NCBI RefSeq assembly: GCF_002214185.1
Contig: NZ_CP022161.1
Span: 2,851,767 to 2,915,766, forward strand
Origin: Streptomyces capitiformicae
GTDB taxonomy: Bacteria > Actinomycetota > Actinomycetes > Streptomycetales > Streptomycetaceae
DNA: 64,000 bases
Reading direction: 5' to 3'
Every line of letters begins with the position of its first letter. The first letter of the stretch is position 1. The notes beneath the pieces were generated by a model that was given only the letters and a program-made list of their open reading frames with translations, made no database searches and was not told where the DNA came from. Positions 16,387-54,278 of this stretch are shown piece by piece. Position numbers and translations under genes: made by a program.

Positions 16387-17394
16387 ATGAATAGGCAGAT
16401 GACGATGACGCCCGACACAGCAATGTCGTTGGATGACTGTATGTTCGAGGTGTATGGGTGGATCCTGGAACAGGACAGCTTCGACCCGCGAGACGCCGCG
16501 GATGGGCTGGGACTGACGCCGGATCAGGCCATCGCGACCTTCGAGCGCCTGGTCCTGCTCGGGTTAGTGCGGGTGGACCCGCGCAACAAGCTGCGCGCCC
16601 GGGCCGTCGACCCCGACGCGGTGGCGCTGCGGCACACCCTGCCCCTGCATGACAGCATCCGCCGCGAACAGGAGAAACTCGACCGGCTGACCGTCGACTT
16701 CAACCGGCTCCGGGACCGGTTCCTGCGCCCCCGGTACAGGGAGAAGAGGTACGCCACGGTCGTCCCCCACCTCGACGAGGTGCGGGCCGCGCTCACCCGG
16801 GCCGCGGCGGAGTGCCGCGAGGAGATGCTGAGCATACAGCCGGGCGGACACCGGGCCCCCGAAGCGCTTCAAGAGGCCCGCCAGCGGGACCACGCCCTAC
16901 TCTCCCGCGGTGTGTCGATGCGCACCATCTACCATCACACGGCCCGCTTCAACGGCCCCAGCCTGGCCTACATCAGCGATGCCGTCGCCCTCGGCGCCGA
17001 ATACCGCACGGCACACGAACTCGCCGGGCGTCTCATCATCTTCGACCGCTGCAAGCTCGCATTCATCCCGATGCGGGACAACAAGGACGGGGCGGTCATC
17101 ATCCACGAACCGTCCATCGTCGCCTTTCTGCGCGATGACTTCGAGACGGTCTGGACGCGGGCGACTCCCTGCGGCCCCACGTCGAACGACCTCGAACAGG
17201 TCGCCAAGGAACTGGACCGGACCATTATCCAGCTGCTGGGGGAGGGGCTGAAGGACGAGACGATCGCGCGTCGACTTGGTATGTCCCTGCGAACCACACG
17301 TCGTCACATCGCCGACATCATGAAACAGCTCGGCGCCGAAAGCCGTTTCCAGGCCGGCGTCCTGGCAGCCCGTCTCAGCGGGGACCTGGGCTGA
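16387..17394 (+). CDS. LuxR-family transcriptional regulator with TrmB-like N-terminus
   Basis: 335 residues. The N-terminal 80 residues look like a winged-helix/TrmB-type segment (LTPDQAIATFERLVLLGLVRVD). A charged coiled-coil-like helix follows (EKLDRLTVDFNRLRDRFL), then a middle domain related to phospholipase-D-like sensor regions of this regulator class (SRGVSMRTIYHHTARFNG). The C-terminal 65 residues are a LuxR HTH: IIQLLGEGLKDETIARRLGMSLRTTRRHIADIMKQLGAESRFQAGVLA, abbreviated here by its ends. There is no receiver Asp or ATP-binding site. Proteins of this shape are common pathway-specific activators at the edge of Streptomyces clusters. It is the first gene of the biosynthetic cluster and is likely to control the operon starting at 17574. 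No ribosome site is clear ahead of ATG 16387; ATG 16402 is an alternative. Confidence 0.8.
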   Translation: MNRQMTMTPDTAMSLDDCMFEVYGWILEQDSFDPRDAADGLGLTPDQAIATFERLVLLGLVRVDPRNKLRARAVDPDAVALRHTLPLHDSIRREQEKLDRLTVDFNRLRDRFLRPRYREKRYATVVPHLDEVRAALTRAAAECREEMLSIQPGGHRAPEALQEARQRDHALLSRGVSMRTIYHHTARFNGPSLAYISDAVALGAEYRTAHELAGRLIIFDRCKLAFIPMRDNKDGAVIIHEPSIVAFLRDDFETVWTRATPCGPTSNDLEQVAKELDRTIIQLLGEGLKDETIARRLGMSLRTTRRHIADIMKQLGAESRFQAGVLAARLSGDLG

Positions 17395-20374: not shown

Positions 20375-20395
20375 CATCGAAAAAGCGTGATTGAA
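20375..20395 (+). promoter_or_regulatory. Conserved regulatory box, copy 1
   Basis: CATCGAAAAAGCG followed by TGATTGAA. The same sequence with two changes lies at 31191-31211 ahead of the large PKS gene. It overlaps the TTG at 20391, which argues that this TTG is not the start of the following gene. Confidence 0.5.
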
Positions 20396-20483
20396 ACGTA
20401 TCGACGACATCGGCACGATCATTCCTGAAGAACTTCCACGTCTCGCTTCGCGCCAGAGGCGGCCAATCCGATGGGAAGCTCCC

Positions 20484-21899
20484 GTGTTCACGCAATACGA
20501 TCCCGATTCCGCAGCACTCACGGCCGAACTGCGCGACCAGTTCGACTCGTTCACAGCGGGACGCTGGGACGCCGAATTCCTGGCGTCGCATCAGAACCAG
20601 AAGCTGCGCGAGGTTCTCGCGTACGCACGCGCCAATTCCCCTTTCTACCGAAAGAAATTGTCGGGCCTCACCGACGAGCACATGGCCGGGCTGCGCGTCG
20701 ACGACCTGCGGAGCCTGCCCTACACGACGAAAGAGGACCTGAGGCAGGCCCAGTTCGACATCCTTTCCCAGCCCATCGCCAAAGCCTGGATCTTCTACGA
20801 GACCACCGGCACGACGGGCGCCGCGACGCCGTGCCCGCGCACCAACGCGGACACCATCCACAACAATTCCGCGCTCACCGCGTATTACCGTGACGTCCTC
20901 GCCGTACACGGCGACCGGCAGGTCATCGGAGTCTCCGGTCCTACCGAACTGCACGCCACGGGCGACACCTTCGGGGACGTCTGCCGCAACCTCGGCCACT
21001 CGGTGGCCAAGATGTGGCCGCATTCCCCCGTGATCGGGTTCGACCGTGCCCTTGAAGTCATGCGGCTGCTGCCGATAACGGGGCTGTTCTGTACGCCCGG
21101 CATGGCGATGCGGCTCGCCCAGAAAGCCGTGGAGGCGGGCCTGGACCCCCGGCGGGACTTCTCGCTCGACGTCCTGATGCTCACCGGTGAACTGATGTCG
21201 CCCAGCCTGCTGGACAACATCGGCGTGCTCTGGGGCGCCGAGGCCCGCAACGCCCTCTACGCCTCGCAGGAGGCCTCGGTGCTGGCCGCGGCCACCTCGG
21301 ACGGCTCGCTGCGCACGGTCCCGCTGATCAACCACTACGAGGTGATCGAACCCGAGACCCTCGCACCGGTCGAACCGGACGCCGACGGGGTGCGGTACGG
21401 CGAACTCGTCGTGACGAACCTCTACATGGGCGCCAAGCCGCTCATCAGGTACCGCACCGGCGACCTCGTCAGGATGACGGACCCCGCGCCCGGTGCCGCG
21501 GTGCGGGCTCCGGCGCTGGAGGTGGTGGGCCGCGTACGCGACCAGCTCCTCCTCAACGGCACCCTCGTCAACGGCTACGACCTGGAGGACCTGCTGCTGC
21601 GCAGGTTCCGCGGCTACCACGACTACCGGATCACCGTCAGCCGCGACGAGCTCGGCAAGGATCTGCTCACCCTGACCCTGAAGGCCGACCCCGACAGCCA
21701 CCGGGACGGCATCGAGCAGGCCGCCGGGGAGTGCCTGGTCGCCCTGGACACCCCGCTGACCGTCGAGTTCGGCGACCCCGGTCCCATCACCAGCACCGGC
21801 GCCATGGTGAGCTGGAAGGCGGCCCGGGTCGTGGACCTGCGCAAGGCGCCCTCCGGCGAGGACTCCTCGGCCGAGCGCATCGCCGCGACGAGGGTCTGA
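20484..21899 (+). CDS. PaaK-like adenylate-forming ligase
   Basis: 471 residues from GTG 20484 (GGGAAG upstream). A longer frame from TTG 20391 has poor codon bias and overlaps a regulatory box, so I prefer the shorter start. The protein follows the phenylacetate-CoA ligase family: LREVLAYARANSPFYRKKL, LPYTTKEDLRQAQ, and WIFYETTGTTGAATPCPRT in place of the usual SSGTTG P-loop. LMLTGELMSPSL, LVVTNLYMGAKPLIRYRTGD and LEVVGRVRDQLLLNGT follow. It should activate a carboxylic acid as the acyl-AMP and perhaps form a thioester. The substrate is unknown; an aromatic or cyclohexene acid from the prephenate branch is one option. Its stop overlaps the aminotransferase start (TGATG), so it belongs to the amino-acid sub-operon. 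Confidence 0.8.
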   Translation: MFTQYDPDSAALTAELRDQFDSFTAGRWDAEFLASHQNQKLREVLAYARANSPFYRKKLSGLTDEHMAGLRVDDLRSLPYTTKEDLRQAQFDILSQPIAKAWIFYETTGTTGAATPCPRTNADTIHNNSALTAYYRDVLAVHGDRQVIGVSGPTELHATGDTFGDVCRNLGHSVAKMWPHSPVIGFDRALEVMRLLPITGLFCTPGMAMRLAQKAVEAGLDPRRDFSLDVLMLTGELMSPSLLDNIGVLWGAEARNALYASQEASVLAAATSDGSLRTVPLINHYEVIEPETLAPVEPDADGVRYGELVVTNLYMGAKPLIRYRTGDLVRMTDPAPGAAVRAPALEVVGRVRDQLLLNGTLVNGYDLEDLLLRRFRGYHDYRITVSRDELGKDLLTLTLKADPDSHRDGIEQAAGECLVALDTPLTVEFGDPGPITSTGAMVSWKAARVVDLRKAPSGEDSSAERIAATRV

Positions 21900-22885
21900 T
21901 GGCACATCAGGACGACCTCACCCGCTCGGCGCTCGGACTGGGCGAGTGGGCCTACGACCGGGGCGAGTTCGTCCCGGCGACCGCGCCGAGGCTGCCGCTC
22001 TCCACGCAGGGCCTGCACTACGGCACCGGCGCGTTCGAGGGCATCCGCGCCTACCGGTCCGACGCCGGGCTCCTTCTGTTCCGGGTGCGCGAACACTACG
22101 AACGCCTGCTGCGCGCCTGCCGGATCCTGCGCATCGTCGACATACCACATGACGTCGACGAACTCGTCCGTCTCACGGTCGAGTTGCTGCGACGCAACGG
22201 CCACGACGGCGACGTCTATGTGCGGCCGCTGGCGCACAAGCTCTCCCTGCTGCCGGACACACCCCCCGGTGTCCAGCTGGCGGGGGTGTCCGACGGGCTG
22301 TCCATCACCACGTTCGGCTACCCCACCCCGAAGACGGTACGGGCCATGCGCTGCCTGATCAGCAACTGGCGCCGGCCGCCCCGCGACACCCTGCCCACCC
22401 AGGCCAAGATCACCGCCGGCTACGCGACCACCGCGCTCGCCGGTGACGAGGCCCGGGCCGCCGGTTACGACGACGCCATCCTGCTGGACCGCGCGGGCAA
22501 CGTCGCCGAGGCGACCACCGCGAACGTCTTCGCCGTGTTCGGCGACCGGGTCGTCACCCCGCCCGCCACCGGCGACCTGCTGGCCGGCATCACCAGGGAC
22601 TCCCTGATCACGCTGTGCCGGGAGGCCGGTATGGAGGTCGAGGAGCGTGTGCTCAGCCCGGCAGAGCTGTTCACCGCCGACGAGATCTTCCTCTCCTCCA
22701 CCGCCAAGGGCGTGGCCGCAGTGGTCGGTCTGTCCGGCAGGGACGTGGGAGAAGCGACCGTCGGCCCGGTCACGACCCGGGCGGTGGCGCTCTACACCGC
22801 GGCCACCGCCGCCGACGGAGCGCATCCCGAGTGGCTCACGCCCGTCGCCCCCCACCCGACGCCGACCTCAGGGAGACAAGGATGA
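21899..22885 (+). CDS. Class IV (branched-chain-type) aminotransferase
   Basis: 328 residues, PLP-dependent fold type IV. LPLSTQGLHYGTGAFEGIRAY is the family start, DVYVRPLAHK the arginine strand, PTQAKITAGYATTALAGDEA holds the PLP Lys, and LDRAGNVAEATTANVFAV with LLAGITRDSLITLC forms the phosphate-binding part. Length fits IlvE-type enzymes (about 310-360). In this position, just ahead of the prephenate-decarboxylase gene, it would aminate the 2-oxo acid derived from prephenate to give the unusual amino acid, rather than act in branched-chain metabolism. Coupled to both neighbours by ATGA overlaps. Confidence 0.85.
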   Translation: MAHQDDLTRSALGLGEWAYDRGEFVPATAPRLPLSTQGLHYGTGAFEGIRAYRSDAGLLLFRVREHYERLLRACRILRIVDIPHDVDELVRLTVELLRRNGHDGDVYVRPLAHKLSLLPDTPPGVQLAGVSDGLSITTFGYPTPKTVRAMRCLISNWRRPPRDTLPTQAKITAGYATTALAGDEARAAGYDDAILLDRAGNVAEATTANVFAVFGDRVVTPPATGDLLAGITRDSLITLCREAGMEVEERVLSPAELFTADEIFLSSTAKGVAAVVGLSGRDVGEATVGPVTTRAVALYTAATAADGAHPEWLTPVAPHPTPTSGRQG

Positions 22886-23499
22886 CGCTCCTCAGCTTCA
22901 GCACGGTCCCACATCCGGCCCCGGAAGAAATAGCCGCCGTGGGCACCCTCGGCCCGCACGGCACCAGCAGCGAGCAGGCCGCGACCCTGTTCGCACGCCA
23001 GGTCGCCGAGGAGGCCGGACCACCCGCCGCCGTCCACCTGTTCGACACCTATGAAGGAGCGGTCGACGCACTGCGCGACGACGCGGTGACCCATGTGGTG
23101 GTGGCCAACGCCTACCGATCGGTCTACCGCATCTACATGGACCCCTCGCTGGCACTGACCAACGTGTTCGTGATGGACACCCCGCTGTACGGCATCGCCG
23201 CACCCCAGGGTGCGGTGCCGGTCACGGACGCCCCCACCATCGCGAGTCACCCCTCGCCGGAACCGATCATCGCGGAGCTCCTGTCGCCGAGGCACGTCAC
23301 GTACAAGGTGCTGCACTCCGACTCGACCAGCGCCGCCGCCATCGCGGCCGTGGACGGGACCGCCGACCTCGCGCTCACCACCGTGCCCGCGGCGGAGCGG
23401 TACGGCCTGGAGTTCGTCTCGCGGACCAGGCCCATCCGCATGGTCTGGTCGGTGTTCACCAAGGCCGTCCCGGACGCCCTCTCCAACCCCGCGGCCTGA
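22882..23499 (+). CDS. salX-like: Prephenate decarboxylase (BacA/SalX-like)
   Basis: 205 residues, the same length as BacA. It contains only the prephenate dehydratase-like fold, without an ACT domain. Matching blocks are VGTLGPHGTSSEQAATLF, a central NAYRSVYRIYMDPSLALTN, MDTPLYGIA, IASHPSPEPII and RPIRMVWSVFTKA; each corresponds in order to a BacA block as I remember that sequence. This family decarboxylates prephenate without aromatising it and gives a dihydro-hydroxyphenylpyruvate. In salinosporamide biosynthesis the SalX enzyme starts the route to cyclohexenylalanine. It sits between an aminotransferase and an ornithine-cyclodeaminase-like gene. This is the key precursor gene linking the operon to the proteasome-inhibitor cluster. 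Confidence 0.87.
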   Translation: MTLLSFSTVPHPAPEEIAAVGTLGPHGTSSEQAATLFARQVAEEAGPPAAVHLFDTYEGAVDALRDDAVTHVVVANAYRSVYRIYMDPSLALTNVFVMDTPLYGIAAPQGAVPVTDAPTIASHPSPEPIIAELLSPRHVTYKVLHSDSTSAAAIAAVDGTADLALTTVPAAERYGLEFVSRTRPIRMVWSVFTKAVPDALSNPAA

Positions 23500-23524
23500 G
23501 TCCGCGTCAGAAAGGAGGAGATCC

Positions 23525-24514
23525 ATGCTGCTGTTGAACGGCGACCAGGTGCGCAAGGTCTTCCCGGCGTCGGAGGCGTACCGCGTGGTGGCCGAGGTGA
23601 TGCGCCGCTACAGCGCGGGCGATGTCGTCCAGCCGGTGCGTACCGTGCTGGCGTCGGGCCGTGACGCCTCTCTCTTCGCCGCCATGCCGTGCCATGTGGC
23701 CGGTGAGACGGACTCCGGCTACGGCTTCAAGGCGGTCCTGCACGCCCCCGGCAACGCCGCCCGCGGACTGCCGACGCATGTGGGCGCGGTGCTGGTGTTC
23801 GATCCGGAGACCGGGCAGCCGCTGGCCATGATGGACGGGGCGGCGGTGACCGCGCTCCGCACGGCCGCCGCGTCGGCCGTGGCGACCGACGCGCTGGCCC
23901 GGCCCGATGCCGGCGTCCTGGCCCTGATCGGGGCGGGCGCCCAGGCGCGCAGCCACCTCATCGCGATGAACGAGGTCAGGCCGCTCAGCCGGGTGCGGCT
24001 CTGGAACCGCGGCTCCTCGCGGGCCGAGGAGTTCCTGACGTGGGCGCGGCCCCGGGTCGGGGTGGACATCGAGCTGGTGGACACGCCCGCCGACGCGCTG
24101 CGCGGCGCCGATCTGGTGTGTACGACGGTGGACACGGCCGAGCCGGTCGTGCGGGCGGCGGACCTCGCCGAAGGGGTGCACATCAACGCCGTCGGTTCGT
24201 CCGTGCCCGGCAAGCGCGAACTCGACTCGGCCGCGGTGGCCTCCTGTTCGGTCTTCGTGGACAGCAGGGCGGGTGCCCTGCGGGAGTCCTCCGAGCTGGC
24301 CGCGCCGGTCGAGGAGGGGCTGGTCCCGGCCGACCGGGACCTGCCCGAGATCGGCGAGGTGCTGCTCGGCAAGCATCCCGGCCGTACGGACCCGGCAGAA
24401 CGCACGCTCTACAAGTCGCTGGGGATGGCCGCGCAGGACGTCGCGTCCGGATTCGCCGTGGCCCGCGCCGCGCGACGCCTCGGTATCGGCACCGAGACCG
24501 ATTTCACTTGCTGA
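23525..24514 (+). CDS. Ornithine cyclodeaminase/mu-crystallin-family oxidoreductase
   Basis: 329 residues with an excellent AAAGGAGGAG site. The family start (LLLNGDQVRKVFP) is followed by a substrate-arm Lys (GYGFKAVLHAP). The Rossmann motif is LALIGAGAQARSHLIAM near 140, and VHINAVGSSVPGKRELD near 225. Family members are ornithine cyclodeaminases, ketimine reductases and alanine dehydrogenases. In this operon a reductase of an enone or imine intermediate on the way to the cyclohexenyl amino acid is plausible. That is inference from context. Confidence 0.8.
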   Translation: MLLLNGDQVRKVFPASEAYRVVAEVMRRYSAGDVVQPVRTVLASGRDASLFAAMPCHVAGETDSGYGFKAVLHAPGNAARGLPTHVGAVLVFDPETGQPLAMMDGAAVTALRTAAASAVATDALARPDAGVLALIGAGAQARSHLIAMNEVRPLSRVRLWNRGSSRAEEFLTWARPRVGVDIELVDTPADALRGADLVCTTVDTAEPVVRAADLAEGVHINAVGSSVPGKRELDSAAVASCSVFVDSRAGALRESSELAAPVEEGLVPADRDLPEIGEVLLGKHPGRTDPAERTLYKSLGMAAQDVASGFAVARAARRLGIGTETDFTC

Positions 24515-24545
24515 CCACTACTACACGGGGAAGCTGACCTTTCGA

Positions 24546-24833
24546 ATGACGGCACTACTGATCGGCAACGTCGGGGCGATCGGCGACGAACAGCGGATGG
24601 CGGAATACCGCGCGAAAGTGCTCCACACGCTGGAGCTGTACGGCGGCGGATTCATGATCCGCGGGGGCGAGTTCGAGGCGCTGGAGGGTGACTGGATCCC
24701 CACGCATCTGTCGGTGATGGTGTTCCCGACGGCGAATCTCGCCCGCCGCTGGTACACCTCGCCCGAGTACCGCGCCATCGTCCCGCTCCGGGAGGGCACC
24801 CACATGGACCTCATCCTGGTGGAGGGGGAGTGA
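24546..24833 (+). CDS. DUF1330 family protein
   Basis: 95 residues from ATG 24546. It shows the DUF1330 pattern: a first beta strand, AEYRAKVLHTLELYGGGFMIRGGEFEALEGDW, then LSVMVFPTANLARRWYTSPEYRAIVPLREG. The family is a dimeric ferredoxin-like alpha/beta barrel of unknown chemistry. The stop overlaps the GTG of the next gene. Its place between two putative tailoring enzymes suggests an accessory isomerase or lyase role in precursor supply, but nothing in the sequence proves this. Confidence 0.75.
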   Translation: MTALLIGNVGAIGDEQRMAEYRAKVLHTLELYGGGFMIRGGEFEALEGDWIPTHLSVMVFPTANLARRWYTSPEYRAIVPLREGTHMDLILVEGE

Positions 24834-25714
24834 CACAGCCCGACCTCGTCGAGGAGGGCGTGGCCGACATGTCGGACCGGCGCGCGCGTTCCTTCGCACA
24901 GGTCGACGTGTTCTCCGGGACCCCCTGGCTCGGCAATCCCGTGGCGGTCGTGCTCGACGGCGGCGGGATCAGCGACCTGGACATGGCGCGATTCGCCGCC
25001 TGGACCAATCTCTCCGAGACCACGTTCTTCGTTCCGCCCTCGTCCGACGAGGCCGACTACGGGCTGCGCATCTTCACCCCGGGCGGGGAGATCCCGTTCG
25101 CGGGCCATCCCACCCTGGGTTCCGCCCACGCGTGGCTCGAAGCGGGCGGGGTCCCGAGGACACCCGGGACGGTCCGGCAGGAGTGCGGGGCCGGGGTGGT
25201 GGAAGTACGGCGGTCCGGCACCCGGCTCGCCTTCCGTGCCCCCGAGCTCACCCGCGCCGGTCCGCTGGACTCCGCGCACCTCGACCGGATCGCCCGGGGG
25301 CTGCGGATCGACCGGGCGCGGATCGTCGACCACCAGTGGGTGGACAACGGTCCGGGCTGGGCCGCCGTACGCCTCGCCTCGGCGGCGGAGGTGCTGGCGC
25401 TGGAGCCGGACGACCGGTCCATGCGGGACCTGATGCTCGGTGTCGTCGGTGCCTATCCGGAGGGTGGGCCCCTGCGGTTCGAGATGCGGGCGTTCGGCCT
25501 GCCGGCCGGGGTGCGTGAGGATCCGGTGACCGGCAGTCTGCACGCCGGGGTCGCCCAGTGGCTGGTCGGCGACGGTACCGCTCCGCGGTCGTACCGGGCG
25601 GGCCAGGGCGCCCGGCTCGGGCGGCATGGAGTGGTCACCGCGGAAGCCCACGGCCAGGACGTGTGGATCGGCGGCGAGAGCATCACCTGCGTGCGTGGCA
25701 CCGCCCACATCTGA
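24830..25714 (+). CDS. PhzF-family isomerase
   Basis: 294 residues from GTG 24830; in-frame ATG 24869 is also possible. PhzF fold marks: FAQVDVFSGTPWLGNPVAVVLDG, then TNLSETTFFVPPSS with the catalytic Glu, LRIFTPGGEIPFAGHPTLGSAHAWL, and DPVTGSLHAGVAQWL near the end. PhzF-type enzymes shift double bonds by general acid/base catalysis. An isomerisation of a cyclohexadienyl intermediate from prephenate would parallel the BacB step of bacilysin. It is the last gene of the coupled precursor series. Confidence 0.85.
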   Translation: MTQPDLVEEGVADMSDRRARSFAQVDVFSGTPWLGNPVAVVLDGGGISDLDMARFAAWTNLSETTFFVPPSSDEADYGLRIFTPGGEIPFAGHPTLGSAHAWLEAGGVPRTPGTVRQECGAGVVEVRRSGTRLAFRAPELTRAGPLDSAHLDRIARGLRIDRARIVDHQWVDNGPGWAAVRLASAAEVLALEPDDRSMRDLMLGVVGAYPEGGPLRFEMRAFGLPAGVREDPVTGSLHAGVAQWLVGDGTAPRSYRAGQGARLGRHGVVTAEAHGQDVWIGGESITCVRGTAHI

Positions 25715-25895
25715 CACCGGCCCGCTCCGGCCTGGCGGAGAACCCCGCCGGCTCCGGACCCCGGAGAACCGCCGCCGACTCCCGTCCCCGGCGACACCCC
25801 GTCGCCCTCGCATCCCGTTGACCCGCCTTCGCCCCAGCCCCCGGGCACCCCCGTCCAGCCCGCTCACCTTGCCCGAAACACCCACGGAGACCCGT

Positions 25896-27104
25896 ATGAC
25901 CGACATCGCCCTGGAACCTCTGCCGAACCCCGGCGACGAGGGCACCTGCCCCTTCGATCTGCCCTCTGCTCTCGCCAAGTGGCGGGAGGAGGAACCGGTC
26001 CGCCGGATCTCCGTGGAGAGCGGCGGCTCCGCCTGGCTGGTGACCCGCCACGAGGACGTACGGACCGCCCTCGGCGACCACCGGCTCAGCGCCGACCGCA
26101 ACCGGCCCGGCTTCCCCCACCTCCGGGCGGACGAACCCCCGATGCCGCCGGGGACGTTCGCCCAGTACGACCCGCCCGAGCACACCCGCATCCGGCGCAT
26201 GCTGACCAAGGCGTTCATGCCGAAGAACGTGGAGAAGCTGAAGTCGCTCATCCGCGAGACCGTCGACGAGCTGCTGGACGCGATGGAGCGGCAGCCGCAA
26301 CCCGCCGACCTGTACCGCGACTTCGCGCTGCGGCTGCCCACGCTGACGATGTGCGGACTCCTGGGTGTTCCCTACGATGACCGGGCCGTCTTCCAGGAGA
26401 ACACCCAGGCCATCCTGAACCTCGGACTCCCCGGTGCCGAGGTGACCGCCGCCTACGAGCGCATGCTCGCCTACATCGGCGAACTGCTCGACGCCAAGGG
26501 ACTCGCCCCGCAGGACGACCTCGTCAGCGAACTCGCCGTCGAGCGGGTGGCCACCGGCGAACTCACGAAGGTGGAGGCCATCGGCGTCATCGCGCTGCTG
26601 CTCATCTCCGGCCACGACACCACCGCCACCAGCATCAGCCTGGGCACCATCGCCCTGCTGCGCGAGCCCGACCGACTGCGCCGTCTGCTCGCCGAACCCG
26701 ACACCGTCCCCGGCGCCGTCGAGGAGCTGCTCCGCTATCTGCCCGGCCTGCACACCGGAGTACGCCGGATCGCCACCGCCGACCTGGAGATCGGCGGGGT
26801 GACGATCCGGGCGGGCGAGGGCGTGATCATGGCCCTCAACGCGGCCAACCGCGACCCTCGGGTCCACGACCGGGCCGACCGGCTCGACTTCGACCGTGAC
26901 CGGGTCGGGCGCTCCAGCCTGGCCTGGGGACACGGCATTCACAAGTGCCTGGGGCAGTCGCTGGCGCGGGCCCAGTTGCAGATCGCTCTGCCGGCCCTGT
27001 TCGAGCGGTTCCCCGGGCTGCGGCTCGCCGTCCCCTTCGAGGAGATCGACTTCCGGGACAAGGCCCTGTTCTTCAGCGTGCACAAGCTTCCCGTCGCCTG
27101 GTGA
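25896..27104 (+). CDS. Cytochrome P450
   Basis: 402 residues. ISGHDTTATS is the I-helix oxygen-activation motif and EELLRYLPG the ExxR. The heme loop is LAWGHGIHKCLGQSLAR, with the usual F replaced by W in the FGxG position. QYDPPEHTRIRRMLTKAF is the C-helix. It has the bacterial class I length and is served by the ferredoxin gene at 27542. Its 5' part is duplicated just downstream as a broken copy. The substrate is unknown; it is not part of the salA-G-like block, so it may act on the precursor or the finished product. Confidence 0.88.
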   Translation: MTDIALEPLPNPGDEGTCPFDLPSALAKWREEEPVRRISVESGGSAWLVTRHEDVRTALGDHRLSADRNRPGFPHLRADEPPMPPGTFAQYDPPEHTRIRRMLTKAFMPKNVEKLKSLIRETVDELLDAMERQPQPADLYRDFALRLPTLTMCGLLGVPYDDRAVFQENTQAILNLGLPGAEVTAAYERMLAYIGELLDAKGLAPQDDLVSELAVERVATGELTKVEAIGVIALLLISGHDTTATSISLGTIALLREPDRLRRLLAEPDTVPGAVEELLRYLPGLHTGVRRIATADLEIGGVTIRAGEGVIMALNAANRDPRVHDRADRLDFDRDRVGRSSLAWGHGIHKCLGQSLARAQLQIALPALFERFPGLRLAVPFEEIDFRDKALFFSVHKLPVAW

Positions 27105-27822: not shown

Positions 27823-28677
27823 TCAGAACGCGGCGACCGGCCCGTTCGGCTGATTGTGGCGCTGTTCGACCATCTCGCGCGCCAGACCTTCCGTCTCCTC
27901 TTCGAAGAGGTGCTCGAAGCCGTCGTCGGTGATCACCGAGATGATGGGGAAGATCCGGCGGCTGAGGTCCGGGCCACCGGTGGCCGAGTCGTCGTCGGCC
28001 GCGTCGTACAGGGCCTGAAGAGCGGCCAGGGCCGCCTCACGCCGGGACATGCCTCGGCGGTACAGCTTCTTCAACGAGCCCCGGGCGTACGGCGATCCGG
28101 AGCCCTCGGCATGGAAGTCCGTCTTCTCGTACGGGCCGCCGGTGACGTCGAAGCCGAACACCCGGCCGCGCTCGCCCTCGGGGGCCGACGGGTCGTATCC
28201 GACGAGCAGCGGCACCACGGCGAGGCCCTGCATGGCCTGGCCGAGGTTCTGCCGAACCAGGTGGGCCAGCCGGGTCGCCTTCGCGCTGAGGGTCATCGGA
28301 ATGCCCTCGATCTTCTCGAAGTGCGTCAGCTCGACCTGGTAGAGCTTCACGAGGTCCAGCGCGAGGCCCACCGTGCCGGCGAAGGCGAGGGCCGTGTAGT
28401 CGTCTGCCGGGTGCACCTTCTCCAGATCGCGCTGGGAGATGAGGTTGCCCATGGTGGCCCTACGGTCGCCGGCGATCATCACACCGTCGCGGTAGGTGAG
28501 GGCGAGCACCGTGGTGCCGTGCGGGACCTGGTCGGGTGCGGCCCGGACGCCGTCCGGCAGGAGCCCTTCCGTGCCGAGCAGCTCGGGCCGATGGGTCTGG
28601 AGGAACTCGATGAAAGAAGAACTTCCGGTCGCGAACAGATCCGTGCCTAAATGGCCTGCGCTCTCGCGCGATGTCAT
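27823..28677 (-). CDS. prcB: Proteasome beta subunit, cluster-borne self-resistance copy
   Basis: 284 residues, GAGGGG ahead of ATG 28677. A 54-residue propeptide (FATGSSSFIEFLQTHRPELL) ends at VPHG, and Thr55 becomes the catalytic Thr1 (TTVLALTYRDGVMIAGDRRATMGN keeps Asp17, Arg19 and the Lys33 block LEKVHPADDY). Mature positions 45 and 49 are Phe and Val (LAFAGTVGL). Housekeeping Streptomyces PrcB has Ile/Met and Ala there as I recall. SalI of Salinispora, the salinosporamide resistance subunit, carries the same Phe45 and Val49 changes in the S1 pocket. No alpha-subunit gene is adjacent. It forms a minus-strand pair with the KASIII-like gene upstream and is best explained as target-modification resistance to a proteasome inhibitor made by this cluster. 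Confidence 0.95.
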   Translation of the reverse strand: MTSRESAGHLGTDLFATGSSSFIEFLQTHRPELLGTEGLLPDGVRAAPDQVPHGTTVLALTYRDGVMIAGDRRATMGNLISQRDLEKVHPADDYTALAFAGTVGLALDLVKLYQVELTHFEKIEGIPMTLSAKATRLAHLVRQNLGQAMQGLAVVPLLVGYDPSAPEGERGRVFGFDVTGGPYEKTDFHAEGSGSPYARGSLKKLYRRGMSRREAALAALQALYDAADDDSATGGPDLSRRIFPIISVITDDGFEHLFEEETEGLAREMVEQRHNQPNGPVAAF

Positions 28678-28761: not shown

Positions 28762-29802
28762 TCAGAGCCGGTCGGCCGGATCCTCCGTCACCTCGAGAAC
28801 CATCGCGGTCATGATGATGCCCACTCCCTGACTCACCAGCAGCACCCGGTTTCCGGGGGCCAGCCGCCCTGATTCGACGAGGTGGTTGAGCCCCGCGAAA
28901 GGATCCCCGGCACCAAGGTGACCGGTCTGCCGGGCGAAGTCCCATACCGTGCGCGCGGCATCCAGTCCGAACGCGTCGATGAACAGCCGCTGGATCACGT
29001 CGATTCCGATGAACGGCAGCACCAAGTGGTCGACCTTGCGCATGTCGACGTCCGCTTCCGCCGTCGCCTGCTCGACGGTCGTGCGCACCAGAGTTTCCTG
29101 CCGGTGCCAGAACTCGTCCACCGACATCGGCCCGCCCCCGAAGAACGAACGGATGCGTCCGGCCAGGTCGACGGGGTACGCGTCACTCAGTGCGGCAGGT
29201 GCCATGGGTGTGTCCCCTCGGTGCATCAGCTCCAGTTGGGGAAGGGCGTTCGTGGTCAGGGAGAGGATCCGCGCGAAGCCCTTGTCCCGGGAGAGGACCA
29301 AAGACGTCCCGCCGTCCGCGAAGACGACCGCGCTATCGGCCCGCCAGCGATCGATCACGGCCGCGGGCTGGAAACGGTCCGCCGTGGTCACCATGACAGC
29401 GGACTGGTCACGATGCGAATTGAGATGGGAGCAGGCCCACTCCAGAGCCACAAGTCCATTGCAGCCGCCGCGCAATTCGGTCGGCAGACACTGGGGGGTC
29501 AGCACCTTCTGCTGGATATAGGCCGCCGCGTTCCAGATATCGAGGCCGGAGTGCAGAACGACGGCGTGCAGCAGCGCCCCGATGTCCTCGGGCCGGGACC
29601 CGGACCTCCTCAGTGCCGTACGTGCCGCTGCGACAGCGAGGTCAGGGGCGCTCTGGCCCTCGTCGGCGACGGCGATCCCGGCATATTGGGTACGGTCGGC
29701 GTCCTCTTGGGCGTAGTGACCATCACGTATCGCCCTCTCCACGGTCACCCGGTCCGGCAGACAAGCGCCGGTTCCCGCGATCCAGATGTCGTTCCATCGC
29801 AT
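28762..29802 (-). CDS. KASIII-like acyltransferase (CerJ/DpsC type)
   Basis: 346 residues from ATG 29802 with GAGGA upstream. Thiolase-fold KASIII homologue: WIAGTGACLPDRVTVERAI, active Cys in LRGGCNGLVALEWA near 128, and GHLGAGDPFAGLNHLV near 300 where FabH has GNTSAAS. The FabH His block (VPHQAN) is replaced by LVLPFIGID. Loss of the Cys-His-Asn set in favour of a GHLGAGD motif is the mark of CerJ/DpsC-type enzymes that transfer acyl groups rather than elongate. It is the first gene of a transcript that continues into the resistance prcB. Its role could be starter supply or acylation of the product; unresolved. Confidence 0.78.
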   Translation of the reverse strand: MRWNDIWIAGTGACLPDRVTVERAIRDGHYAQEDADRTQYAGIAVADEGQSAPDLAVAAARTALRRSGSRPEDIGALLHAVVLHSGLDIWNAAAYIQQKVLTPQCLPTELRGGCNGLVALEWACSHLNSHRDQSAVMVTTADRFQPAAVIDRWRADSAVVFADGGTSLVLSRDKGFARILSLTTNALPQLELMHRGDTPMAPAALSDAYPVDLAGRIRSFFGGGPMSVDEFWHRQETLVRTTVEQATAEADVDMRKVDHLVLPFIGIDVIQRLFIDAFGLDAARTVWDFARQTGHLGAGDPFAGLNHLVESGRLAPGNRVLLVSQGVGIIMTAMVLEVTEDPADRL

Positions 29803-30189
29803 GGGGGGCGAATCCTCCCAGTTGGCTCTCGTTTTGTTTTTTCCACAGATCCTGCGGGCGAGCATTTGACTCCCTCGCCCTCCCCTTGACCCAGAACGTA
29901 CGGAAGGGGACAGGAGGATCGTCCAGCGGACTGTCGAAGAGTCGTCCTGACGGTGGAGGTCCGTGGTGGACACACAGGTCACCGGAGCCGGTCCACGCCG
30001 GACTGAGTTTTTTGGGGAAACGTGCATCGAACCGACCGACGCCGACCATCTCATCCCTGACACCAAGGGCGTCCAACAGGACCCGGTGACTGGTCAGCGC
30101 ACCGCGGGAGTCGGTCTGCGGGACGCCGGCCTTGCGGCAGAGGGCTGGAAGGATGTTGTGGTTGAGGTAGTCATTGCCGACGAGCCCTC
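29803..30189. other. Intergenic with integrase debris
   Basis: No intact gene. It holds the promoter side of the KASIII/prcB pair and the remnant of a tyrosine recombinase listed separately. Confidence 0.5.
30088..30180 (-). pseudogene. Tyrosine recombinase/integrase fragment
   Basis: About 30 codons: NDYLNHNILPALCRKAGVPQ, then TDSRGALTSHR. This is the block just before the catalytic Arg/His region of XerC-like integrases (PALCRKAGVPxxDxRGxxTSHR). The rest of the gene is absent. It sits between the KASIII and DUF2306 genes, a possible old insertion point within the cluster. Confidence 0.55.
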
Positions 30190-30921
30190 CTACTTCGCGC
30201 TTCCCTGAACCGGTCGCCGCTGTCCTTCGTTCCTTGGGCGTCCCAGTGCGTTGCCGCGCTGAATCCACCACTCCGCGATCAGCAGGTTCCCCACGAACGA
30301 AAACCAGTTCGCCGCGGCAGAGATGTCCTGGTCGGTCGCTCCGTAACTGTCCGGGATGATTGCCAGCATTATTACGATGTAAAGGCGTCCGGTGATTGCC
30401 GCCGCGGTCAGGGCAAATGAGCGGATCATCCAGATGCGGTGCATACGGAAGTCCCGGCGAAGTGCGGTACGTAGCCCCTGGACGCCAGTAATGAACCACA
30501 GCACGCAAAGAACGGACAGGGGCGCGCTGGCGGCCAGCCCCTGCAGCGACATGACTGCAACGGGCAGTGCAAAGATCGAGCCGGGTATGACGCACGCGAA
30601 ATAGAGGCGGCCGACCCACCGGTGCACTGGTCGGCGAGGGGTCTGCAACGACGGCACGAACTGCAGCACACCGACAGCGAGCGCGACAACGGCGGTGGCG
30701 ACGTGCATCACCAGCAGCCCGTAGTCCAGCATGCCGCGGACTGGCGTTCTGCTCTGGTCGATGTCCAAGGTCACATAGGCGCTCACGGAGAACACCGCCA
30801 CCGCGCAGGAAACGAAGCCGGCGAACCCCAACCACACAAGGTAGCCGGTGGATTTCTTCCGCGTACGTGCAGACGACGGCGTCTCCACGGCCGACTTACC
30901 GGGAACCAGGCCAGAGGTCAT
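30190..30921 (-). CDS. DUF2306 multipass membrane protein
   Basis: 243 residues from ATG 30921 (AGGAG nine bases upstream); a longer frame from 30975 lacks a site. Seven hydrophobic segments, among them YLVWLGFAGFVSCAVAVFSV, GLLVMHVATAVVALAVGVLQFV, FACVIPGSIFALPVAV and WMIRSFALTAAAITGRLYIV. His residues in PVHRWVGRLYF and FRMHRIWMIRS match the DUF2306 pattern, which resembles heme/quinone-interacting membrane proteins. Function unknown. Oriented away from the PKS gene; it may be unrelated to the pathway or serve export/redox needs. Confidence 0.75.
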   Translation of the reverse strand: MTSGLVPGKSAVETPSSARTRKKSTGYLVWLGFAGFVSCAVAVFSVSAYVTLDIDQSRTPVRGMLDYGLLVMHVATAVVALAVGVLQFVPSLQTPRRPVHRWVGRLYFACVIPGSIFALPVAVMSLQGLAASAPLSVLCVLWFITGVQGLRTALRRDFRMHRIWMIRSFALTAAAITGRLYIVIMLAIIPDSYGATDQDISAAANWFSFVGNLLIAEWWIQRGNALGRPRNEGQRRPVQGSAK

Positions 30922-31269
30922 GATGTCGCGCTCCTGACGGACGGTTAGGACAACAAGCTCGTATGGAGAGGGCATGACGGTGCGGGCACTACCTCACAGC
31001 ACACTGGGCGTCCCAACAGCGAGATCTCTGTGGCGGAAGTCCTCGCGGTAAGCATGTCGGCTCCCTTCACCCGCTTCAATCGCGATTTCCCGATGCCGTG
31101 GATCCATTGATCAGATGACTCGGAACGCGTACACGGATATGCGGTTGTCCCGAATGCGTTCGGCCGGGCATCACGTCAGGTGTTCCATGGCATCGAAAAA
31201 GCGCGTTTGAAGGCCCACTTGCTCTCGCTGATGATGTGAGCGGGCCATCCGAACGACGGAGGAAGAGAT
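30922..31269. promoter_or_regulatory. Divergent promoter region of the PKS operon
   Basis: About 350 bp between the divergent DUF2306 and PKS genes. It contains the conserved box at 31191-31211 and, next to the start, GGAGGAAGAG seven bases ahead of ATG 31270. Confidence 0.6.
31191..31211 (+). promoter_or_regulatory. Conserved regulatory box, copy 2
   Basis: CATCGAAAAAGCG followed by CGTTTGAA, 58 bases ahead of the PKS start; the first copy is at 20375-20395. The following GTTTGAAGGCCCA resembles GTTTCAAAAGGCCCA ahead of the FAAL gene near 17490, hinting at a shared activator. Confidence 0.5.
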
Positions 31270-34200
31270 ATGCCGACTGATTCCAGTCCGCTCGATATCC
31301 ATGGGATCAGAGACTTTCTTCTTTCCCGGCTCGCCGAGTCGCTCGGCGTTCCCCGCGACGAGGTGGATCCACGGGCGCCCCTGCATCGCCTCGGCCTGGA
31401 CTCGGTGAAGGCCACGGCACTTGTCACCGCGCTGTCGGAATTCCTCGGCCGTACGGTTCCGGTCACCCTGGTGTGGGACCACCCGACGCCGGAGGAACTG
31501 TGCCGCGCACTCGCAAAGGGCCCGGACGACACCGGTGCCGCGGCGGACGGGGCGACACGCCCGGCGAGGACGTACGGCCCCCAGGAGCCGGTCGCCCTCG
31601 TGGGGATCGGGTGCAGGCTGCCGGGAGCGCCGGATCCGGCGTCCTACTGGCGGCTGCTCGTGGACGGCGGGGACGCCGTGGACAGGGTGCGATCCGCGCG
31701 GCGCGCGCTGGGGCCCGACGACGTGGCGGCCTCGTTCCGCTGGGGCGGTTACCTCGACGACATCGACATGTTCGATCCGCTGTTCTTCGGGATCTCACCC
31801 CGTGAGGCGGTCGCCATGGACCCCCAGCAGCGTCTGGTGCTGGAGCTGGCGTGGGAGGCGCTGGAGGACGCCGGTGTTCCGCCGGGCAGCCTCGTCGGCA
31901 GCGACACCGGTGTCTTCATGGGCTCCAGTTGGAGCGACTACGCGGCGATGGCGCATCAGTCCGGCTTCCGGCAGGACATCGGACCCCATACGGCGACGGG
32001 CACGCACGACAGCATCATCGCCAACCGGGTCTCGTACACCCTCGGGCTGCAAGGTCCCAGCATGGCCGTGGACACCGCCTGTTCGGCCTCGCTCGTCGCG
32101 GTCCACCTGGCCTGCCAGGCGATCCGCAGTGGCGAGAGCGAGCTGGTCCTCGCCGGTGGGGTCAATCTGAGTTTCTTCACCGACCACTTCCTGGCCATGG
32201 ACCAGATCGGAGCCCTGTCCTCGGACGGCCGGATCAAGGCCTTCGACGCCCGTGCCGACGGCGCCGTGCGCTCCGAGGGGGCGGCGGTGGTCGTTCTCGC
32301 GCCGCTGCGCGTCGCCCTGGAGCGCGGGCTGCCCGTGTACTGCCTCATCCGCGGCAGCGCCGTCAACAACGACGGTCTGAGCAACGGGCTCACGGCTCCC
32401 AACCCCCGCGCCCAGGAAGCCCTGCTGCGTACCGCCTACCGCAGGGCCGGGGTCGCACCGGACCTGGTGGACTACGTCGAGTGCCACGGCACGGGCACCC
32501 CGCTGGGCGATCCGATCGAGGCGAAGGCGCTGGGGACCGTACTGGGCCGTGGCCGTGCGCCCGAGGACGCCCTGCGGATCGGTTCGGTGAAGACGAACAT
32601 CGGGCACCTCGAACCCGCCGCGGGCATCGCGGGCCTGGTCAAGGTGGCCCTCGCCCTGCGCAACGGAGTTCTCCCGGCCAGCCTGCACTACACGAGCCCC
32701 AATCCACGGATCCCGTTCGCCGAGGCCGGTCTGCGCGTGCAGGACCGGACCACCCTGTGGCCCCGGCGCTCGGACGTGCGGCGCGCCGGAGTCAGCGCGT
32801 TCGGCTTCGGCGGCACCAACTGCCATGTCGTCGCCGAGGAGTTCCCCCAGACGGAGAACTCCCTCCTGCTGCTGGGCGAGGACTCCGCGCAGGCACTCGC
32901 CGACCGGGTCACCGCGCTCCGCGCCGAGCTGGACGACGACACCCCGGCCGACCTGCCGGCCCTGTGCCGGGAGGAGTCCGGTACGCGCGGCAGCGGCCGG
33001 TTCCGGCTCGCGGCGACAGCCGACGACCGGGCCGAATTGCGGGCCCAGCTCGACGCGTTCACGGCCGGCCGCCCCCACCCGGGCCTGGCCACGGGCGAGG
33101 GCGGTGAGGGTCGGCCGCGGGTGGCGTTCCTGTGTTCCGGGACCGGCAGCCAGTGGGTGGGGATGGGGCGGCGGCTGCTCGCGGGCATGCCCGCGTTCCG
33201 CCGGTCCCTGCTGCGCTCGGACGCGCGTATTCGGGAGCTGGCCGGCTTCTCCGTGGTCGACGAACTGCTCGCGGACGCCGCACACGCGCGGCTCGACGAC
33301 ATGGAGATCGTCCAACCGCTGCTGTTCTCCGTGCAGATCGGCCTCGCGGACGCCTGGCGCTCACTGGGCGTGGAGCCCGACGTCGTGCTCGGCCAGAGCA
33401 TCGGCGAGTTCGCCGCCGCCCATGTCGCGGGGGCGCTCGACTTCGAGGACGCGACGCTGCTGGCGGTGCACCACGCGCGGCTCGTGCAGCGGCTCGCCGT
33501 GGGCCGCGGCGACACGATGGTGGTGGCGGCCGACGAGGAGCGGGTGGCGCCGCATCTCGCCGCCGTGGGCGGCGACCTCACGGTGGCCGGGCACAACGGC
33601 CCCACGTCCCTGCTGGTCTCCGGCGGGAGCGCGGAGCTGCAGGCGCTGACCGAGCTGCTGACGGCCGAGGGCGTGACCTGCCATCGCGTACGCATGGGCT
33701 ACGCGTCGCACTCGCCTCAGGTGGAGCCCGTACTGGAGCCGTTGCGCGCCGCGCTCGAAGGGATCAGACCGGTCCGGCCTCGTGTTCCCCTGATCTCCAC
33801 CGTCACCGGCGAGCTGATCGGGCCGGACGACCTCCTCGGCCCGGAATACTGGACGCGGAACGTCCGGAGCGGGACCAAGCTCATGCGTGCCGTGTTCACG
33901 CTGGCTGAGCAGGGTGTCGACGCCGTCGTGGAACTCAGCCCGCACCCGGTGCTGTTGAAGCCGGTGCGCGAGACGCTGGACGAGCGGGAGGTCCGCTGCC
34001 TCCCCTCGCTCCAGCGCGGCGTGGACGACGGCCGGAGCATGTTCCGCACGCTGGGCGAACTGCACGCCGCCGGGCTCCCCGTCACCGTCGGCCCCTCCGT
34101 CTCCGGGACTCGGGGACGCCATCTGGAGCCGGGCCGGCGGGCGGCGCTCACCCACGCCGGCCAGGCGTCCGTGCCCACCGAGCGGATGCAGCTCGTCCCC

Positions 34201-37200
34201 GTGACCGCCCACTCGGAGCAGGCCCTGCTGGACAGTTGCCGGGCGTTGTCCCAGCACGTCGAACGAGATGGCGGGCTCTGGCTGCCCGACCTCGCCCACA
34301 CGCTCGCGGAGCGGCGCACCCACCACAGGCACCGCGTGGCGATCCTGGCCCGCGACCGGCAGGATCTCCTGGACGGACTCGCGCGGGTGAGCGCCAAAGA
34401 GCCGGACCTCGCCGTCACGCGGGGCGTGGTCGAGGGGCACCGCGAGCGGCGGGTGGCGTTCGTCTTCTCCGGAAGCGGCACCCAATGGCCGGGTATGGGC
34501 CGCGAACTGCTCCAGTGGCACACCGGTTTCCGGGAGCGGATGGAGGAGTGCGACGCCGCCGTGCGCACGGTGACGGGCTGGTCGGTGCTGGACGAGATGC
34601 TGGCGCCCCCTCAGACGTCACGGCTGTACGACGGGGACATCCAGCAGCCGGTGCTGTTCGCCCTCCAGGTCTCCCTGGCCCGGTTGTGGACCGATCTCGG
34701 CGTCGCACCCGTGGCGCTCGTCGGGCACAGTGTCGGCGAGGTGGCCGCGGCGTGCGTGGGCGGCGCGCTGTCGCTTCAGGACGGTGCCCGGATCGCCGCG
34801 GCCCGGTCGCACCTCATCCAGCACGAGGCCGGCCGGGGCGCCATGATCGTCGTGGAGTGGTCGGAAGACCTCCTCCCCCTCCTCGCCCGGTACGAGGGCG
34901 AGGCATCGATCGCGGCATACAACAGCCCCACCAGCGTGGCCGTCTCCGGCGCGCCGGACGCGATCCGCGCGCTGGAGGAGGAGCTGCGGCGGGCGGGCAC
35001 CTCGACCCGCGCGCTCCGGGTCGAGAGGGCGGGTCACAGTGTGCTCATGGACCCGATCCTCGCACCGCTGCGGGAGGCCATCAGGGACATCACGCCGCTG
35101 CCGTTCGAAGTGCCGTTCCACTCCACCGCGCTCGACGGCGCTGTGGACCCGCGGGTCGACGCCGACTACTGGGCGCACAACCTCCGCAATCCCGTGCGGT
35201 TCTCGCCCGTTGTCGCGGCACTCGTCGAGGACGGTGTCGACACCTTCGTGGAGATCGGCCCGCACGGCACCCTGCGCGGAGCCGTCGAGGAGACGGCCCT
35301 GGCTCAGGGCACGTCCGTCCATGTGGTCGACTCCCTGCGTCGGGGCGAGAGCGACACCCGCAGTCTGCTGGGCTCCGTGGCCTCCCTGTTCACGCACGGT
35401 GTGCCCCTGTCATGGACCACGCTGTTCCCGGACGGCGCGCGGGTGGTGGAGACACCGCTCGTCAGCTGGCAGAAGGAGCGCTACTGGCTGGGGACGTCGA
35501 CGGCGCGCGAGTCGGGCGGCGTCCCCGCCGAGACGCCGCAGCCGACCACGACCGGCACGGCCTCGGCGGACACGGCCGCGCCGCAGGCGACGCGGGACGT
35601 CGTCCTCGGCGAGATCGCCGACATGCTCGGGATTCCTGTCCGGATGTTTGAACCCGCCACCCGGCTGCAGGACTTCGGGCTGGACTCCATGCTGGCCATC
35701 CGCCTGAGCAACAGGATGCAGACGCTCTTCGGACACCGGGTGTCGCCGGTGGAGTTCCTCAACGGCAGCACGGTCAAGGACATGCTCGAACGCATCCTCG
35801 AACTCGTCGGCCGGCCGGAGGAGACCGTCCCGCGCGACGGCGCGGTGGAGACCCCGGCGGACGATCGGCCGACCGCTGTCGCGTACCTGTCGGACGAGGA
35901 CGCGGAAGAGCTGCTGACCGAACTCGTCGCGAGGAAACTGCTGGATCCGCCCGCCCCGGACAGTCGGACGCCCGCGCGGGAGAGTCTGCGGGCCGCGCTG
36001 GAGAGCGAGGCGTCCTTCGAGGTGGCGCCCACCGGGCACGGGCAGGCCTCGATCTGGTTCATGCAGCAGCTGTCGCCCGACGGTGTGGCGTACAACCTCA
36101 TGTGCGCCGCGCGGGTGCGCGGCACCGTGGACGAGCGGGCCCTCGAACAAGCCGTGGCCGCGGTGGTCGAGCGTCATCCGGCGCTGCGCACCAGCTTCGT
36201 CGAGGCGGGCGGACGGCCCCACCAGCTCATCTGGGCGGACCCGGTGTACGAGTTCCTGACGGAGGACGGCTCGGGCCTCGACGACGAGGAGCTGCGCGAC
36301 CTGCTCATGGAGCACGGTCATGTGCCGCTCGATCTCGACCAGGGCCCCGTGTTCCGCGTGGTGCTGGTGTCTCGTGAGGCGGGGGACGACTACCTGCTTC
36401 TGGTCATCCATCACGTCGCGGCCGACGCCGCCTCCGTGGACGTCGTCGTACGCGATCTGCGTGAGTTCTACGGCCGGGCCCTGCACGGCGATCTACCGCC
36501 CCAGGAGCCGGTGGCCCCCTACACGGACTTCGTGGCCTGGGAGGAGGCGTGGCTGCGCGGTCCGCAGGCCGAGGAGGCGCTGCGCTGGTGGGCCGACAGC
36601 CTGGCCGCGCCGCCCGCCCACCTCGACCTGCCGCCGCGGGCCGGGGCACAGGCACCGGCGAAGGAGCGCGCCGCGGGCGTCAGCTACGCCGGTGCGGACC
36701 TGACGTTCCGCTGGACCGTGGACGAGGCGCGCCGGCTGCGGGAGTTCGCGGTGCGGGAGGGCGTCTCCCTCAGCACCCTCGTGCTGGCCGGCTTCTTCGC
36801 GACGCTGAACCGGTTCGCGGGCGCCGAGGACGCCGTCGTCGCCACGGCGATCGCCCAGCGGGGCGAGGCGGGCCGGGAGTCCGCCGTGGGCTACTACCTC
36901 AACACGGCGCTGGTACGGGCCCGGCCGGGCGACGAGAGCAGCTTCCGCGGGCTGCTCCAGGAGGTGCACGCCTTCTCGCTCGGCGTGCTGGAGCACATGA
37001 ACTACCCCCTGGACCTGTTGGTGTCGGAGCTGAACCCGCCCCGCATCGACGGGCGTTCCCCCTGGTTCGACTTCGCCGTCAACTGGCTGTCCGGCGACGC
37101 CTTCACCTACGCCAACACGCTGTTCCACGGTGCCGGTGAGGCCGAGGAGCCGTCCGGGGCGCTGCCTCTCGTGCCCGTTCCGCTGCGGCGGCACATCGCG

Positions 37201-39281: not shown

Positions 39282-39325
39282 GACGTCCGCCCGAACCTTC
39301 GTGACCATGGGAGACCTTGAGACTG

Positions 39326-41122: not shown

Positions 41123-41170
41123 GCCGGTCTTGTCCACATATTCCACGACACGATCAGCCGGAGCCCCGGA

Positions 41171-42448: not shown

Positions 42449-42657
42449 CCGGAAACCCCTTCGACGAGGATTCCGGCGACTGGCAGGTCGTCCTCAACAA
42501 CCAGGGCCGGTACGCCCTTTGGCGAGCCTGCCTGAGGCTCCCGGCCGGCTGGCGGATCGTCTTCTCCGCCACCGACCGGGAAACGGCGCTGGACCACATA
42601 GAGCTGTGCTCCACCGGCCGCGGAGCTGCCCGGCAGCAGGCGGGGACCGCCTGGTAA
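42445..42657 (+). CDS. mbtH-like: MbtH-like protein (SalE-like)
   Basis: 70 residues: NPFDEDSGDWQVVLNNQGRYALWRACLRLPAGWRIVF shown by its ends, then CLDYI-like DHIELCS. The MbtH signature NxxxQYxxWP is degenerate here (NNQGRYALWRA), but length and blocks fit. MbtH proteins bind A domains and support their folding and activity, here presumably the A-T protein at 37401. TAATG overlap with the next gene. Confidence 0.85.
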   Translation: MTGNPFDEDSGDWQVVLNNQGRYALWRACLRLPAGWRIVFSATDRETALDHIELCSTGRGAARQQAGTAW

Positions 42658-46435: not shown

Positions 46436-46497
46436 ACGAATCTTCCTTTGTCTCGGGCAGGGGTTCTCTCCGCGCAATCGAAGATCGGTTTCCCGGG

Positions 46498-51240: not shown

Positions 51241-51251
51241 CGGGACTCCGT

Positions 51252-54233: not shown

Positions 54234-54278
54234 GATTGCCTTTCGTAGGTGCGGGCAGGGCCGCCGGATCAGGGGCGG

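Follow-up and report, generated by a model that had tools for sequence, protein, structure and literature searches.

Does a second proteasome beta subunit gene in Streptomyces capitiformicae shield its host from an inhibitor made by the genes around it? The question is raised by a stretch of 64,000 nucleotides (hereafter the window, i.e., this whole stretch) in which a beta gene, prcB2, sits among biosynthetic genes. Here, we report that prcB2 likely provides self-resistance for a gamma-lactam-beta-lactone cluster of the cinnabaramide type, by target replacement as with SalI, a reading that we draw mainly from the position of the gene in the cluster.

The prcB2 gene and its surroundings

prcB2 (27823..28677, minus strand) encodes 284 amino acids from its ATG, including a 54-amino acid propeptide. 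Translation of 28677-27823 on the minus strand reads ...VPHG|TTVLALTYRDGVMIAGDRRATMGNLISQRDLEKVHPADDYTALAFAGTVGLALDL... across the cleavage point, i.e., residue 55 is Thr1. The codons of the S1 pocket lie within 28369..28383 (minus strand), where position 45 is TTC, Phe (28383-28381), and position 49 is GTG, Val (28371-28369). An earlier note on this DNA had read Thr55 as Thr1 and had placed Phe45 and Val49 at these codons, and all three are borne out by the translation. It had also pointed to the same two residues in SalI; SalI indeed carries F45/V49, with M45/A49 in the housekeeping beta of its genome. PrcB2 scores 356.3 bits against TIGR03690 (curated cut-off, 191.9), which places it among the bacterial 20S proteasome beta subunits, and the catalytic-type residues T1 (after Gly), D17, R19, and K33 are all intact. 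In the alignment with its best solved-structure match, 2h6j (presumably from Rhodococcus), positions 45 and 49 are I and A.

The whole host assembly (10.99 Mb, one contig) was searched for proteasome-fold genes and holds three of them: prcB2, and one beta adjoining one alpha. The latter two form the housekeeping prcB-prcA pair (G000:C1:6448267-6449593), 3.6 Mb from prcB2, and no second alpha subunit gene was found in the assembly. The description of prcB2 as a beta gene without an alpha partner and inside the cluster is accurate, i.e., the sole prcA sits by the housekeeping prcB and sal-like genes surround prcB2. A separate prcB is present, and therefore the objection named beforehand, that prcB2 might be the only prcB of the genome, fails. 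In the proposed alignment with the housekeeping beta (PrcB1), which is 57% identical to PrcB2, PrcB1 reads I45/A49 versus F45/V49 in PrcB2.

Beyond prcB2 in the window lie six plus-strand genes that we name by sal letters. Their identities are given, in turn, to genome G381, which we take to be Salinispora tropica CNB-440, and to Streptomyces sp. DSM 15324: a salA-like PKS/NRPS with the domains ACP-KS-AT-AT-ACP-C (31270..37404; 64% and 74%), a salB-like NRPS, A-PCP (37308..39281; 64% and 77%; the start of this ORF, which overlaps salA, is probably too early), a salC-like stand-alone ketosynthase (39317..41122; 69% and 84%), a salD-like cytochrome P450 (41171..42448; 74% and 87%), a salF-like alpha/beta hydrolase (42519..43505; 67% and 79%), and a salG-like reductase of the zinc dehydrogenase family (43499..44848; 72% over 473 aa and 82%). 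The SalC ketosynthase is the warhead-forming enzyme of the sal pathway, and SalG is a crotonyl-CoA carboxylase/reductase. Taken together, the six homologues (31270-44848) are 64-74% identical to, and in the same order as, the G381 run 1147605-1161140, i.e., salABCD, salF, and salG are all present in the order that defines a cinnabaramide/salinosporamide cluster.

The window is colinear with one contig of DSM 15324 from about 16.3 kb to its right edge, at 50-87% identity, and the left end of this colinear stretch is a LuxR-type regulator (16387..17394, plus strand). A plus-strand block common to both (20391..27104) comprises genes for a PaaK-like ligase, a class IV aminotransferase, and prephenate dehydratase-like, OCD-like, PhzF-like, and P450 proteins; most of it also lies beside salA-C in several other loci. 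Its prephenate dehydratase-like gene (22615..23499, plus strand; PF00800, E 3.8e-6; 73% to DSM 15324) is a candidate SalX-like enzyme of the cyclohexenylalanine pathway, and this would be what a cyclohexenylalanine unit calls for. Between prcB2 and salA lie two minus-strand genes (28762..30975), for a FabH-like KS III and a DUF2306 membrane protein, for which no match was found in DSM 15324 at E 1e-15. DSM 15324 is named as a source of cinnabaramide in PMC6022970. By gene content, the window cluster is of the cinnabaramide-like gamma-lactam-beta-lactone type, and it would be active and make such a compound. As a second beta, in the cluster, with F45+V49, prcB2 has the features of a SalI-type self-resistance beta, from which reduced inhibition of the core would be predicted.

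Two further regions are worth recording. The stretch 45494-63039, also colinear in DSM 15324, holds a LysR regulator, NRPS/PKS pieces, and acyl-CoA dehydrogenases, and may belong to the same cluster or to a neighbor. The short ORF 27138-27545, between the full P450 (25626-27104) and a ferredoxin-like ORF (27541-27738), looks like a P450 remnant; neither of the two short ORFs has a Pfam match.

The F45/V49 pair among Streptomyces beta subunits

How much weight can the two residues bear? F45+V49 is present in 120 of 121 sequences (the PrcB2 query and the best 120 of 7,999 scored homologues), the exception being I45/V49, and in 158 of 340 distinct mature beta sequences, i.e., 151 PrcB2-type and 7 SalI-type, where position 20 (Ala or Thr) separates the two types; sequences entered both sets by similarity, not by random sampling. 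Within the PrcB2 family, the pair is found in 151 of the 152 distinct sequences collected. Among the remaining 182 betas of the 340, none has F45 (position 45 is I, V, M, Y, or A), one has V49 (P0113, PrcB2-type), and 181 have A49. The pair is beyond chance among the collected betas, yet, as these sequences stand, it is the norm of the PrcB2 family and not special to this cluster. Being the family state, it marks the family, so only position ties the window copy to the compound. Side by side with these, five SalI-type betas (P0243-P0247; 69-74% to SalI, F45/V49) are encoded on contigs of 1-11 kb that are environmental in origin, and the organisms behind them are possible producers.

Of the 199 genomes of the genus searched (host included), 34 carry a beta that shares 73% identity or more with PrcB2, the best of the other matches seen being 61%. 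The 33 carriers among the 198 other genomes have what we call orphan PrcB2 genes, 73-80% identical to the window PrcB2 (72% for one in a second comparison) and F45/V49 without exception (33/33). Around each orphan, up to 20 kb was fetched (about 10 kb per side, with contig ends shortening L057 to 6.8 kb and L055 to 16 kb) and searched with 16 in-frame cluster genes of the window (tblastn, E 1e-15); only prcB2 was matched, at 33/33 loci, and one query, the 66-aa ferredoxin, is perhaps not long enough to pass the thresholds. At 29 of the 33 loci the neighborhood is conserved, i.e., at least two of ten neighboring families recur, which include those of a GH65 hydrolase, a NicO transporter, and an amino-acid permease. 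With this common neighborhood and no sal-like genes, the usual PrcB2 is thus an orphan at a conserved chromosomal place. DSM 15324 has such an orphan besides its cluster copy, and the neighbors of that orphan belong to the conserved families.

The earlier note held that finding both residues, in a beta gene without an alpha partner and inside the cluster, directly predicts target-modification resistance. That step goes too far: the pair is family-wide and recurs in 33 of the 198 other genomes of the genus, with no sal-like genes seen in the stretches fetched around it, and we rejected the residue pair alone as proof of a resistance role. The same distribution also counts against the self-resistance reading as such, i.e., the pair, as judged from these loci, is not cluster-specific. 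Because most carriers found are orphans, the F45/V49 signature alone is unusable for finding inhibitor clusters in Streptomyces.

Spare beta subunits are not confined to PrcB2. A second beta of 50-61% identity is present in eleven further genomes of the 199, with the 45/49 residues F/V (two), Y/V with L20 (two), I/V with F20 (one), I/T with V20 (four), and M/A with V20 (one), and one decayed copy. The Y/V, I/V, I/T, and M/A types are at L217, L221, L223, L224, L225, L226, L227, and L229 (genomes G186, G121, G120, G073, G184, G047, G105, and G050), and the decayed one (L207/L228, G133:C2:254569-255390) has D17G and K33E and is scrambled around positions 30-50. No sal-like genes were found in the stretches fetched around the ten non-decayed loci, two of which are on contigs of about 4 kb and a third of which has the gene at a contig end. 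In total, V or T occupies position 49 in 42 of the 44 extra betas of the 198 other genomes, and A49 is found in every housekeeping copy read. It may be that Streptomyces maintain a lasting reserve of spare betas, evolved several times over and altered in the pocket (positions 20, 45, and 49), mostly outside inhibitor clusters, as intrinsic immunity to the inhibitors of their neighbors, that cinnabaramide-type clusters recruited a ready-made member of it, and that Salinispora took a Pseudonocardiales-type beta in which the pair re-arose; we regard this picture as possible rather than probable.

Cluster-borne copies and their descent

A scan with a SalC profile, one genome per species, found 41 loci; of these, 34 reach at least 63% identity, and the 32 genomes that contain them were all searched for betas. 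In 6/6 Streptomyces genomes examined with SalC of at least 74% (window included), the cluster has a PrcB2-type beta within it or at its side, a count that leaves out the SalC relatives of at least 74% known as proteins alone (P0125-P0131). SalC identity is 74-85% in the five others: prcB2 adjoins salA in DSM 15324, samsunensis, MUM 2J, and NBRC 110611, and is about 7 kb upstream of salA in netropsis. Its exact position and orientation differ between clusters, and in the window two genes separate it from salA, as might be expected if prcB2 were a chance neighbor with no role in the pathway; we consider this highly improbable in view of the contrast between 6/6 clusters with prcB2 and 0/33 orphans with a sal-like gene in the fetched stretch. 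A mixed locus in SID12501, set apart from the more distant group only after its prcB2 was seen, has prcB2 between PaaK-like and KS III genes (SalA 60%, SalC 64%, salB-like 69%, and salD-like P450 85%).

A larger group of salABCD-like loci (L073-L099; SalC 63-70%) is found in Streptomyces, Kitasatospora, and Streptantibioticus. At these 27 distant loci in 25 genomes (SID12501 apart), neither a salF-like hydrolase nor a beta was found in the fetched stretch (about 10 kb on each side of salC, less at contig ends). PrcB2 is elsewhere in 7 of the 25 genomes and absent from the other 18. The frequency of 7/25 (8/26 with SID12501) compares with 33/198 (Fisher p 0.17 and 0.10) between sets that are unmatched, i.e., at least one genome is in both (G003/G227, the same match) and Kitasatospora and Streptantibioticus are among the 25. 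Salinispora fenicalii (L072/G204) has salABCD-like genes (SalC 67%) and, in the assembly searched, a single housekeeping-type beta with M45/A49. SalC identity between S. fenicalii and G381 is 85%, and this, with the betas of G381 (F45/V49 in the cluster and M45/A49 for the other), is part of why we take G381 to be S. tropica. According to PMC8609351, the species S. fenicalii makes salinosporamides B and D, in a strain that may differ from the assembly searched. With sal-like genes, one M45/A49 beta, and salinosporamide production in the species, a second F/V beta is thus not obligatory. The lack of a second beta in S. fenicalii, of any beta in the stretches fetched from the 25 distant-locus genomes, and of PrcB2 altogether in 18/25 would argue, at the level of gene content, against self-resistance.

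The descent of the gene was followed in a tree of 83 betas with positions 45 and 49 masked. All 32 PrcB2 rows fall on one side of a branch (100/100), apart from housekeeping PrcB, and the window gene thereby belongs to a Streptomyces PrcB2 family; the SalI type, with 6 rows, forms a clade separate from that of PrcB2. PrcB2 is near the Streptomyces housekeeping beta by a weak link (76/3.5). SalI falls within a clade (100/100) that also contains eight housekeeping-type betas, presumably from Pseudonocardiales and relatives judging by their names, the nearest being an Amycolatopsis sequence (97/94). Forcing SalI and PrcB2 into one clade costs 49.7 log-likelihood units and is rejected (p-AU 0.0015). 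The mature SalI is 48% identical to PrcB2, and 61% identical to the housekeeping beta of its own genome (58% in PMC6449301). Common descent with SalI, i.e., PrcB2 as a SalI orthologue, was rejected on the 48% identity, the separate clades, and the p-AU of 0.0015. With the two clades separate and a single F/V clade rejected, F45/V49 therefore arose at least twice. On the aligned sequences, the pair in SalI and PrcB2 is convergent.

Within PrcB2, the orphan and cluster copies are on opposite sides of a branch in the 83-beta tree (orphans 100/97), and a quick tree, which carries a long-branch warning, has a 15-row clade containing the cluster copies (support 92; context not known for four rows). 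A single clade of cluster copies is not rejected (p-AU 0.638). The PrcB2 root falls among cluster copies in the 83-beta tree and among orphan lineages in the quick tree, with its long-branch warning. In the quick tree, subject to the same warning, the distant F/V orphans L219 and L220 join outside both orphan and cluster PrcB2; should this placement hold, the pair predates the recruitment to the cluster. F45/V49 probably did not evolve inside this cluster, and would have been inherited from the larger Streptomyces PrcB2 family, independently of SalI. dN/dS is 0.14-0.25 in six comparisons of cluster copies to the window prcB2, 0.10-0.33 in ten PrcB2 pairs, and 0.09-0.15 in three housekeeping pairs, and the purifying selection on PrcB2 indicates a protein in use.

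Could PrcB2 be a general alternative Streptomyces beta, whose narrowed S1 pocket alters the peptides cut in stress or development, with the cluster copy merely displaced and resistance a by-product? The 29/33 orphans in a common neighborhood with no sal-like genes in the fetched stretch, the purifying selection, and the co-occurrence of an orphan with a cluster copy in DSM 15324 would agree with it; the separation of cluster copies from orphans across a branch (100/97 for the orphans; 92 for the 15-row clade of the quick tree) and the 6/6 association at SalC of at least 74% speak against it, and we judge it unlikely. Self-resistance of the cluster remains our preferred reading, supported by what was observed: a second beta with intact catalytic residues and F45/V49, a site inside the cluster, an arrangement that recurs in cinnabaramide-type Streptomyces clusters, and purifying selection.

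Proposed mechanism and comparison with known systems

When the cluster is on, PrcB2 would assemble with the one PrcA of the genome, either as the only beta or together with PrcB1, and Phe45 and Val49 would narrow the S1 pocket of the PrcA-PrcB2 core. The ring side chain of the inhibitor sits in S1. It would fit the narrowed pocket poorly, reducing binding, and Thr1 would escape acylation, by which some proteolysis may go on. That the PrcA-PrcB2 core excludes the inhibitor from S1 is proposed by analogy.

SalI is reported to confer 30-fold resistance in PMC6804068, and positions 45 and 49 are pointed to for SalI in PMC6449301. By the wording of the latter, the SalI proteasome binds salinosporamide with 'greater binding affinity'; it also states that only two residues differ between the subunits, a statement at odds with the 58% identity that it gives itself. 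For PSMB5, PMC7932915 describes A49V cells as resistant to all inhibitors tested, with clashes in models, and substitutions at A20, M45, and A49 as clustering among those resistant to all tested; marizomib/salinosporamide is absent from its main text. A49V also abolished chymotrypsin-like activity in haploid cells (PMC7932915), which counts against the proposal. T1, D17, and K33 are intact, so PrcB2 could react with the inhibitor, and the cluster copy might be mainly a decoy that soaks it up, not a resistant catalyst. The affinity wording of PMC6449301 would suit a decoy, though it stands beside the 30-fold resistance of PMC6804068; the retention of F45/V49, and the clash of valine 49 with inhibitors in the PSMB5 models (PMC7932915), do not, and we give the decoy very little credence.

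With self-resistance preferred, the window prcB2 is a further candidate, and a well-supported one, for a proteasome self-resistance gene of cinnabaramide-type clusters. A self-resistance beta is itself of a known kind; its interest is raised by the convergence with SalI and by a widespread family of orphans that have this pocket too. The pair has risen independently in SalI and PrcB2, and V/T49 recurs in further spare betas, which makes these pocket positions evolutionary hot spots; according to PMC7932915, they also mutate in bortezomib-resistant cells. We found no literature joining salinosporamide, PrcB, and Streptomyces, or Streptomyces, prcB2, and proteasome, in a search that had most subscription papers outside its scope.

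Four systems are useful for comparison. The cluster beta of DSM 15324, which we take to be CinJ, is 83% identical (mature protein) with F45/V49, and its gene, in a colinear cluster, agrees with the window prcB2 in strand and in the side of the salA homologue on which it lies. About 260 bp separate the prcB2 and salA matches there, whereas the window has two extra genes between them. The orphan Streptomyces PrcB2 proteins likewise have F45/V49, but the 16 window cluster genes queried were not found beside them. The bortezomib-selected or engineered PSMB5 mutants (A49V, A49T, M45, and A20; PMC7932915) involve the same pocket positions as PrcB2; there, in contrast, the housekeeping subunit is mutated and no extra gene is involved. 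SalI of S. tropica (as read from G381) is, like PrcB2, an extra beta with F45/V49 and an intact Thr1 in a salABCD cluster. However, the two are only 48% identical as mature proteins, SalI groups among Pseudonocardiales-type betas and PrcB2 does not, and its gene is beyond the salG end of the sal run, whereas the window prcB2 is on the salA side.
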